A stretch of 64,000 bases of DNA from Rhodamnia argentea (taxonomy: Eukaryota; Streptophyta; Magnoliopsida; Myrtales; Myrtaceae), in assembly GCF_020921035.1 (NCBI RefSeq), contig NC_063154.1, forward strand, positions 2,232,001 to 2,296,000, read 5' to 3'. The notes beneath the pieces are model-generated. The model was given only the letters and a program-made list of their open reading frames with translations. It did no database searches and was not told the origin of the DNA. The position numbers were made by a program, and so were the translations under genes. Position 1 is the first letter of the stretch; each line of letters starts with the position of its first letter. This document shows, one piece after another, positions 3,357 through 17,963 of the stretch.

Positions 3357-6300
3357 TCAATCGTCATGGTCACGAAAGCGGATAACTCTGCTCACAAAAG
3401 CCTTCTCACGGGCATAACTGATGGAGCACAAAATCATTATGAGCTTAGAATAAATTCATTAACACACTCATGGTACATAGTCGACGAAAGGAAATAAGAG
3501 AAAAGGGTGTCACTTACATGACAAAGGCTGATGTGCAGAAGCAAGTCAACCCAACAAAAAAATGAACTAAAAATGAGGGCCAAAAGTTCTCCTTGTCCAA
3601 GAAAATTTTCTCCGAGGTAAGTGTAGCTAAACCAGAAAGCAGCAGAACTGTTGTCCCTGAAGGGAAGCACCCATGAAATGAAAAGGATGACGAATCCTGT
3701 GCAAACCGCCAAATCCAAATTAAAATTAGGAGAGGACTTGCCAAGAAAGACAAGCAAAAGATCCAAATTCGATGTCATACCTGGAAATACTTTTTTATGA
3801 ATGTTGCAGAGTAGATTATTCTCAAAAGCATGTCTTAACCCAATCAAGGAAGTCAAAATCCGAGAACCTCATCTACATAATCTCTAAGAATCTCAACTCC
3901 TCATCGTAAGACATAACAATGTTACCAAGTACCAGCACTCTTTAATAAACGACAACAAAAATGGATTAGAACATAGAGGAGGGAAGGGCTAAAAAGCAAA
4001 GATAGGGGAAAAATAGGCTGATGCTTCGACTTTAGAGTTGTCACATTTTGTCTAGAATTTGCTTCTTTATCCAAGCAATCTGGCTAAATTATGGAAGACT
4101 GACAACAAAGTACACCAGTTGAGAGGGGGAAAAAGGATACTCAAAGAATTTGCCATAAGTAAGCCAGCTGCGCCCGTTGATTTTATTAACATGATATTTA
4201 GCACCACATATATGGACGAGAACACAAGCAACATATCATTTGAGCGTTTGAGCTGTTTTTCATCCGCAACTGCATGCAGAAATGCCTCCGAAGTTCCTGA
4301 TGCACAATCAAATGACACATGATGAGAGCATCTCCATGATGGCTGAATCAGACAGCACACTTTTCTATGAACTTCAGTTTGCCACAGGACCAAATGATGC
4401 ATTTCAATCGCTAGTTGAAAATCACACTGCACCATAACACGATCTTATATAATCTACAAATATATAATTGGATATCTTCTGCTCCAATATAAGCTGACAA
4501 AATATTTCAGGATAATGACGCATACTAATCTATACTGCAACTCGCGCGATACCAAATATAGAATGATTAAGTGGCCGGAAAGTCAATTAATTGGTACTCT
4601 AATTTTGTGGTAACAAGACCCATTCAACTAACCTAGCAGTAAAATACCTAAAGGGAGAGGAGAGAGGAGGATGAGCACAAAGGAATTATCCTAAATGCCA
4701 TCTCATATTGTTTTCACTTGCTCTTCACAATGATTATATATGCAATAGCAACAAATCTTAGATCCATATTTAAACAAAAACCATCACTAACCATTCATAG
4801 CCAAGAAAAAGATGTAGATGCAGTAGTAGCGAAGGACTGTTGGTGCTTCTCCATCACTCCATTTTTTACCATATAACAACCTTATCAGGGAGTAAGAGTA
4901 ACTTGGGCCAAAAGCAACAAATATAAGACCTACAAGGCATATAACCAGAGAGGATATGAATGAGAGAGAGAGAAAGAGAGAGCAAATTCAAACAGGATAT
5001 TGCCACAGGATTTAACAGCTGAAACCGGTTACAGTATTCCATTAACGCTGTGTATACTGAGGAACATGATAAGCATATTGTAAAACCTGTATCCTCATTA
5101 ATATCTTGTTCAGACACTCTTAAAGTCCCAAAAATGTATCATAGTACAGCAAATCACGTTGTTTAAGTTTCATGTCAATGAGCTTTTGTTGGTAACAGAA
5201 AAAATAGGAAGGCACAAGACAACTAGGTTGTAATATACACTGGAATTCATGTAAAAGATACGCCAAAAGAGTCTACCTGACTCATCAAGGTGCATAAAGC
5301 AATAGAATTGGTGACTGTCTAATAGAAAAGCGTCATTGCTTTAATTACGGTCTATTACTTAATAAAAATTGAAGATAGCAACAAATCTAAGAGGTGTATA
5401 ACTGTAGTTAGACATTGTTGTGCCTCTATTTGATGGGCCAAAAAAGTAGGACAAGTAAAAGATTCAACCACTTAGAATAAAGACAGGCATCATGCAATTA
5501 CCATTTCAGTGTCTGCTTCATCGCGCATAGATCAGATAATAAATCAATAAGAAATTTTGATCACATGTGAGAATATACAGATAAATGGAATGAAGTAACT
5601 TTTAATCAGCTTCACTCTTTAATAAGCACGATCTGGAGATGAAAGCAAATGCTAAGCATAAAAGGAAATAGAAATCATAGCTGCGAAGACATTGATAACC
5701 AATTATCATTCGGAATGCCAAGTGATTGTATGTTTCTGGCGTTCCTCAGCCATGCACAACAATTGCATTATATAGCAGCCTATATTGAGAGTCTTAAGTA
5801 AATCTGGAACAGAGGTTGAGAATAAGAAATTCCCAAATGGAACAAATTAAACTAAGTGAAACATACCTATCAACATGACAAGTTTAAGGGCCTCTGTAAG
5901 ATTTCTCCCTATCTTCCGACTCCTGTCCGCACTTTGTCCTATAGGGACATAAAACAATAAAATAAAAATAAGTCCATGAAAATAACGTAGATGATGCACA
6001 TAATCACGACAGTCAAGAAATAGCGTATGACTTGAATGCAAGTTGTGCCAATTACCCCGAGAATAAACAGATTTGAAAACTTTTGAACCATATCAGTAAT
6101 CATCCCTCATAATACAGAAAAGATTAAAAAAAAAAAGAACGTAGTTGTACCACGATACTATGCATGACTTGCTTGGGAGAGCCTTCCACAAAGCCTAAAG
6201 TAATCTAAATATGCACGCACGTGCAGACAGTACTATAGTATTCATGCCTTCCAGGAAGCTGCCTTCAGACAAAAAATTTTAAAATGTCTCTATGCGTTTA

Positions 6301-17100: not shown

Positions 17101-17963
17101 CTTCCTCTTGCACAGATGGACAACCTAAGGATTTGAGTATGAGTAACAAGAGCATACTGTTAGAGCTTATCGATCTCAAAAATTGCTAGGAGAATCCCTC
17201 ATGACAAAAATAGATGAAAATTTGCTAGCACTACATGCTAGCGTCACCTCTTAAGATATGCGTTTATCTCTCACACAAATGACATCCCACGCAAAATTCC
17301 TAGTACATTTCACGCCATTTATGAAGTATCTTTTTCCTCAAGTAATGCTATATGCTTGTTCCATTCAAATACTAAGTGAATTCATTATGTCTACAGTCTA
17401 CGATCCTTGACAAGAGCTAACAAAGCTGCATAAGAGTGTGAATGCGCTATCTGACATCCAATTCCGACCTCACATGCTTACATTGGCAAGACAATTTATG
17501 AACCAAGAGCACAGCTCCTCAACCAAAAAATCGATTGAGATCCTCCGATCACCGATTTTAAAGCACGTAATACTAATTAAAACTTCGATTGACGTGCGAC
17601 TTAATTAGACCAAAGTAGCAATAGCTCAAACAATAAGTTCAGCAAAGTAAAAAGAATTTGAACCTCAGGAGGACGAAGCAGCTTGACTCCAAATCTATCG
17701 ATCGCACGGGCCATCAAGCTATCGGGAGACGCGTCGTGATCGCCGGTGTAGACGACGCAGTCGAGATCGGGACGCTCCTCCTGCACGGCCTTGACGGCGC
17801 ACCACAGCACTCTCTCCCCTCCTCCGCCGTCGTTGGTGTACGGATGGAAGAATCCGACGGCTCTCTTCCTGCTCGCGCGGCAGGAGACGATGCGCGAAGC
17901 GAAGAAGAGAGCAAGGGACGCGAGTGTGGCGACCAGAGTCCAAATGAGGATGACGGCCGCCAT
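14135..17963 (-). CDS. ALG11: ALG11, GDP-Man:Man3GlcNAc2-PP-dolichol alpha-1,2-mannosyltransferase
   Basis: GT4-type glycosyltransferase on the cytosolic ER face that adds the fourth and fifth mannoses, giving Man5GlcNAc2-PP-dolichol. Exons in coding order: 17664-17963, 16838-17124, 16329-16515, 15699-15767, 15393-15586, 14461-14570, 14135-14379. They sum to 1392 nt, 463 aa plus TAA, the same length as I recall for Arabidopsis LEW3/ALG11. Visible features are an N-terminal membrane anchor (about residues 3-24), the [14 protein letters not shown] donor-site loop (37-50), a CYTHYPTIS block in exon 2, and the retaining-enzyme EX7E motif with Glu365 and Glu373 (EHFGISVVE), followed by MAAGAIPI. 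The frame stays open upstream of ATG 17961-17963, but the chosen Met is the one giving a normal anchor. The 5' flank is partly duplicated farther upstream. RFT1, which acts on its product, follows on the same strand. Confidence 0.96.

Follow-up and report, generated by a model that had tools for sequence, protein, structure and literature searches.

Two genes assigned to consecutive steps of N-glycan precursor synthesis, ALG11 and RFT1, lie side by side in Rhodamnia argentea, and a first-pass annotation of this DNA left three readings of their adjacency: chance, an ancestral linkage or selection for co-expression. Which of these is favoured by the locus itself and by gene order in other eudicots is the question addressed here. 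Members of the ALG11 family add the fourth and fifth mannoses, and the action of ALG11 on the Man5GlcNAc2-PP-dolichol lipid is established. The window, by which we mean the whole 64 kb stretch of DNA that was analysed, belongs to contig C5 (32.3 Mb) of a 346.7-Mb assembly. R. argentea has eleven chromosomes and GCF_020921035.1 as its reference (PMC10144328). The features of the locus are summarized in Table 1.

Table 1. Features of the ALG11–RFT1 locus (window positions unless a C5 position is given)
Feature	Position	Strand	Details
Window	C5:2232001-2296000		Rhodamnia argentea (Myrtaceae), GCF_020921035.1
LOB-domain gene	C5:2230026-2230574		just left of the window; E 6.7e-39
RFT1 homologue	3357..10728	minus	14 exons (10680-10728 ... 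3357-3417), 517 aa; Pfam
Intergenic gap	10729..14134		3,406 bp, without N, without recognisable gene
Plastid clpP 5'UTR element (RF04331)	12501-12570	minus	Rfam, 69.5 bits; plastid DNA piece in the nuclear gap
ALG11, GDP-Man:Man3GlcNAc2-PP-Dol alpha-1,2-mannosyltransferase (predicted)	14135..17963	minus	7 exons, 463 aa; Pfam
ALG11 exons	17664-17963, 16838-17124, 16329-16515, 15699-15767, 15393-15586, 14461-14570, 14135-14379	minus	
Clathrin heavy chain gene	20612..32349 (approximate, from ORFs)	minus	Pfam Clathrin on 22258-22905 and 23124-24188
Protein phosphatase 2C (PP2C) gene	40367..42254 (ORF limits)	minus	model 100% identical to R. argentea 'probable protein phosphatase 2C 30'
Copia-type retrotransposon remains	49545-51708	minus	

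Structure and setting of the gene pair

The ALG11 model has a reading frame of 1392 nt that ends in TAA and contains no internal stop, with all introns GT-AG. Both of its Pfam domains score above the curated cut-offs (ALG11_N, E 2.5e-89, 299.3 bits; Glycos_transf_1, E 1e-24, 87.4 bits), and the segment at residue 365 (EHFGISVVE) matches EX7E, the catalytic motif of GT4 enzymes. When run over the whole assembly, the ALG11_N profile matched this locus only (three exon matches). Among the matches listed, the protein is 92% identical to its counterparts in both E. grandis and Syzygium grande and mostly 71–81% identical to other plant ALG11s. The RFT1 homologue retains 13 introns, all GT-AG, lacks internal stops and is aligned to positions 6–510 of the 512 of the Rft-1 profile (E 5.6e-141, 471.2 bits), a near full-length domain; among the matches listed, its identity with the E. 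grandis counterpart is 94%. The two genes are arranged head-to-tail on the same strand, rather than bidirectionally, with their coding sequences 3,406 bp apart. The identities, intact frames, shared strand and spacing of about 3.4 kb given by the first-pass annotation are all borne out by the gene models and Pfam.

The gap between the genes wholly contains ten ORFs of 60 aa or more. The eight that were scanned (62–95 aa) matched nothing in Pfam at E values up to 1, and on this evidence (8 of 10 ORFs) a hidden gene in the gap was rejected. A tRNA search of the whole window found none, and the clpP 5'UTR element is the sole Rfam match at the gathering threshold in the 64 kb. The earlier statement that no gene intervenes holds for the ORFs scanned, tRNA and Rfam; the plastid fragment that the gap contains had gone unmentioned.

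Several repeats accompany the pair. Direct repeats of 80–110 bp with a spacing of 102–300 bp occur at 1129–1616, in the interval between RFT1 and the LOB-domain gene. Near the 5' end of ALG11 and before the clathrin heavy chain gene, two direct copies (18542–18714 and 19802–19971) are 77% identical and 1.26 kb apart, and a second matched pair (18072–18121 and 19324–19371) lies beside them; with two matched pairs, a local duplication or an old element at 18–20 kb is likely. An ORF in RFT1 intron 4 (8406–8657) gave no Pfam match and resembles a fragment of a LINE reverse transcriptase.

To the right of ALG11 follow the clathrin heavy chain gene, a weak alpha/beta-hydrolase match (below the Pfam cut-off), the PP2C gene, the Copia element and APC1. 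Outside the window, on its left, come the LOB gene, provisionally taken to be LBD21 for its similarity to the Arabidopsis protein, a gene of Ole e 1 type, kinase and LRR segments that perhaps belong to one gene, and a glutaredoxin gene; further left are an N-terminus presumed from its motif to be of Rad21/REC8 type (near L006:1417), a gene with a Methyltransf_29 domain, one with an S1 domain and a match to histidine phosphatase. Read leftwards from ALG11, R. argentea thus has RFT1, the LOB gene, the Ole e 1-type gene, the kinase, the glutaredoxin gene and the Rad21/REC8-type N-terminus. In Arabidopsis, PP2C, ALG11, the kinase and the methyltransferase presumably have their counterparts around At2g40180–At2g40290, and clathrin heavy chain 1 (At3g11130) presumably lies close to LBD21.

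Gene order in other eudicots and in the Myrtaceae

Gene order elsewhere was approximated by distances between locus tags and by the occurrence of the listed proteins on contigs of equal size, which is a rough test. The protein matches used were the best 120 of 492 clusters for RFT1, of 3841 for ALG11 and of 3321 for PP2C. One assembly per species was assumed for untagged species, and where two PP2C copies were listed for a species, sharing by either copy was enough for it to be scored.

Among the matches listed, PP2C and ALG11 are two tags apart in Xanthoceras and Craigia, three in Tetracentron and six in Rhamnella (four of eight tag-numbered assemblies); the other four give distances of 31 (Erythroxylum), 180 (Nyssa), 1323 (Liquidambar) and 6147 (Ulmus), so that the control is not clean. 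This tag list is without Salix udensis, Pterospermum and Escallonia rubra, in which the tags place the genes far apart or on other chromosomes. PP2C and ALG11 share equal-size contigs in 13 of 22 hand-paired species among the matches listed, a count made without Xanthoceras, Camellia, Escallonia rubra, Ilex and Turnera, whose contig sizes differ. The equal-size test gives false negatives: the two Xanthoceras genes are neighbours by tag, yet the longest contigs listed for them differ. The PP2C matches carry both 'PP2C 25' and 'PP2C 30' names and are probably a mixture of paralogues, which confuses PP2C as a proxy. Judged from gene order, ALG11 is in an old neighbourhood, with PP2C as an old neighbour, because the two are separated by only 2–6 tags in four other eudicots.

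The tags of RFT1 and ALG11 are 412 to 95,007 apart in all seven tag-numbered assemblies among the matches listed, Cannabis being the closest (412). The two genes are on equal-size contigs in three of 18 hand-paired species among these matches (Cannabis, Rhododendron vialii and Lupinus luteus), a chance-like result (binomial tail 0.11–0.27 at 10–15 chromosomes). The RFT1 pairing left out rows from differing assemblies and those that were scaffold-level or unmatchable. These were Carya (chromosome 3 versus 1 by tag), Deinandra (tags 14,877 apart), a Populus hybrid (contig sizes differing from those of ALG11 and PP2C), Xanthoceras, Linum perenne, Chenopodium quinoa, Camellia, Theobroma, Trema, Corchorus, Jatropha, Brassica and E. 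grandis, as well as the Ziziphus RFT1–ALG11 and Cannabis RFT1–PP2C comparisons. With the pair adjacent in none of the seven tag-numbered assemblies and on unequal contigs in 15 of the 18 species (a rough measure, among the matches listed), an ancestral, eudicot-wide adjacency is unsupported by tags or contig pairing among the species compared. The separation of the two genes in Arabidopsis that the first-pass annotation stated fits PMC13247534, in which At5g07630 is named as the RFT1 homologue, and PMC12712439, in which At2g40190 is named as a putative N-glycan enzyme. The AT5G07630 locus also belongs to the gene pairs examined for chimeric readthrough transcripts that the m6A pathway restrains; these pairs are described as enriched in recent rearrangements (PMC6545605).

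A looser ancestry would have had RFT1 and ALG11 on one ancestral eudicot chromosome, perhaps near each other, with most lineages splitting them and the Myrtaceae keeping or tightening the link. RFT1 and PP2C share equal-size contigs in five of 19 species, and RFT1 shares one with either ALG11 or PP2C in eight of 30 (Cannabis, Ziziphus, Lupinus, Rhododendron vialii, Actinidia eriantha, Diplodiscus, Ancistrocladus and Syzygium), nominally above chance (tail 0.0006–0.028; all among the matches listed); a loose old same-chromosome linkage is therefore possible by this proxy. However, the distances on the shared contigs are large among the matches listed (RFT1–ALG11, 412 tags in Cannabis; RFT1–PP2C, 285 in Ziziphus, 863 in Diplodiscus and 1122 in Ancistrocladus), the direct RFT1–ALG11 count is the chance-like one given above and the PP2C paralogues blur the proxy. 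We regard an old linkage of this kind as improbable, though worth keeping in view.

Within the Myrtaceae, E. grandis ALG11 is EUGRSUZ_G03076 (among the matches listed), and two papers assign Eucgr.G03078 to LBD21/AT3G11090 (PMC5383985) and Eucgr.G03083 to REC8 (PMC10345981). The numbering leaves a single free slot, G03077, between ALG11 and LBD21, and this slot is a candidate for RFT1 that would fit the ALG11–RFT1–LOB order of R. argentea. The putative Rad21/REC8-type N-terminus of R. argentea, further left, follows the order in which REC8 comes after ALG11 and LBD21 in E. grandis. No RFT1 locus number was found in the Eucalyptus papers searched. In E. grandis, the records for RFT1 and ALG11 are on unequal contigs (60,484,081 versus 54,830,020; matches listed), which perhaps come from two assemblies, or could be different chromosomes; no usable length for distinguishing the chromosomes was found in PMC12239627. 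In Syzygium oleosum, RFT1 and PP2C are on contigs of equal size (24,191,684 each; among the matches listed). Because of the E. grandis slot numbering and the Syzygium contigs, the ALG11–RFT1 pair is probably shared within the Myrtaceae, by Eucalyptus and Rhodamnia. No report of the adjacency was found in titles and abstract openings, which does not prove its absence from print.

The same evidence bears on a false assembly join, in which two loci would have been wrongly united in the gap, for example at the piece of plastid DNA. Plastid reads can, we suppose, mislead assemblers, and a clpP element is present in the gap, but the gap contains no N in a contig of 32.3 Mb, the E. grandis numbering leaves one slot for RFT1 and the listed Syzygium RFT1 and PP2C contigs match in size. 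We give this explanation little credence.

Pathway context and regulation

Plant metabolic gene clusters are defined by at least three co-located, non-homologous genes of one pathway. Only ALG11 and RFT1 were recognised among the scanned ORFs of the window and the 50 kb to its left, a partial annotation. ALG3, the next gene of the pathway, is on contig C1, not C5; its product acts after the flipping step (PMC3204403). The first-pass annotation stated that RFT1 is needed for flipping, which is contested: purified Rft1 is reported to flip in a 2024 reconstitution (PMC11182771), and PMC11365447 and PMC3711325 report or cite evidence that Rft1 is not required.

None of ERSE, ERSE-II, CCACG, TGACG and TCATCG, or their reverse forms, occurs in both 1-kb upstream regions. 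RFT1 alone has two CGTGG upstream, and bare ACGT cores occur in both regions (4 and 2). The two regions have 12 10-mers in common, where the mean is 2.6 (P 0.0125), but no 12-mers, so the excess is given no weight. With no full element in both, a joint promoter element was rejected; with no full ER-stress element common to both and ALG3 on C1, selection for co-expression is left without support. Assuming 30,000 genes, 0.0008 adjacent pairs of consecutive steps are expected by chance for the 12 pairs of this pathway, rising to 0.16 if 300 pathways with eight pairs each are assumed; a post-hoc sighting of one such pair is therefore not startling.

A selected mini-cluster, in which linkage was kept because it is favourable to express or inherit together the genes that make and move Man5GlcNAc2-PP-dolichol, would suit the adjacency of two genes whose products act on one lipid (for RFT1, PMC11182771) and its probable sharing by Eucalyptus and Rhodamnia. 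Nevertheless, there are two genes only, with ALG3 elsewhere; they are head-to-tail 3.4 kb apart, with no full ER-stress element in both; and the eudicots compared outside the Myrtaceae manage without adjacency (matches listed). We consider it very unlikely. A single RFT1 move before the Myrtaceae radiation, with the pair then kept as a two-gene primary-metabolism cluster because linkage aids dosage or expression, is equally hard to credit.

Origin of the pair and comparison with known systems

The explanation that we favour, with some confidence, is that a rearrangement in a Myrtaceae ancestor put RFT1 into the old gene block around ALG11, leaving separately transcribed, probably neutral, lineage-restricted neighbours rather than a cluster. 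The gene structures and their order, the closeness of PP2C to ALG11, whose tags nearly follow each other in four further eudicots, and the lack of close RFT1–ALG11 linkage in the other eudicots compared (matches listed) are its basis. RFT1 would be the newcomer, and its move would predate the split of Eucalyptus and Rhodamnia. Because RFT1 keeps its 13 introns, the move would have taken place at the DNA level, as a segmental move or an inversion; arrival as a retrocopy is ruled out by the same introns. The plastid insert in the gap may, speculatively, mark the repair of a break. Each gene is predicted to be transcribed from its own promoter, and the pair would have persisted by drift, without functional need for linkage. 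We infer that neutral persistence is the simplest reading of the adjacency, and chance fixation of the rearrangement fits best; of the three original readings chance is favoured, and neither eudicot-wide adjacency, in the species compared, nor selection for co-expression has support.

The observation is thus true and its explanation ordinary, with a testable lineage story for the Myrtaceae. It serves mostly as a calibrated negative: neighbours from one pathway can look clustered, yet here the comparison across eudicots points to a newcomer in an old neighbourhood. If the pair is common to the Myrtaceae, it offers a natural experiment, with one family linked and others unlinked, in which the effect of linkage on co-expression is measurable.

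Arabidopsis ALG11/LEW3 is a GT4 mannosyltransferase of the cytosolic face of the ER, and RFT1 is an ER membrane protein. R. argentea ALG11 likewise has full ALG11_N and glycosyltransferase group 1 domains and EX7E, and differs from ALG11/LEW3 in having RFT1 in its neighbourhood. Compared with the known RFT1 (At5g07630), the R. argentea protein has a near-full Rft-1 profile, and its gene adjoins ALG11, a placement that was not observed among the other eudicots compared (matches listed). Unlike plant metabolic gene clusters, the pair comprises two genes only, belongs to primary metabolism, has ALG3 on another contig and carries no sign of joint regulation in the 1-kb upstream regions; like them, it juxtaposes non-homologous members of a single pathway.
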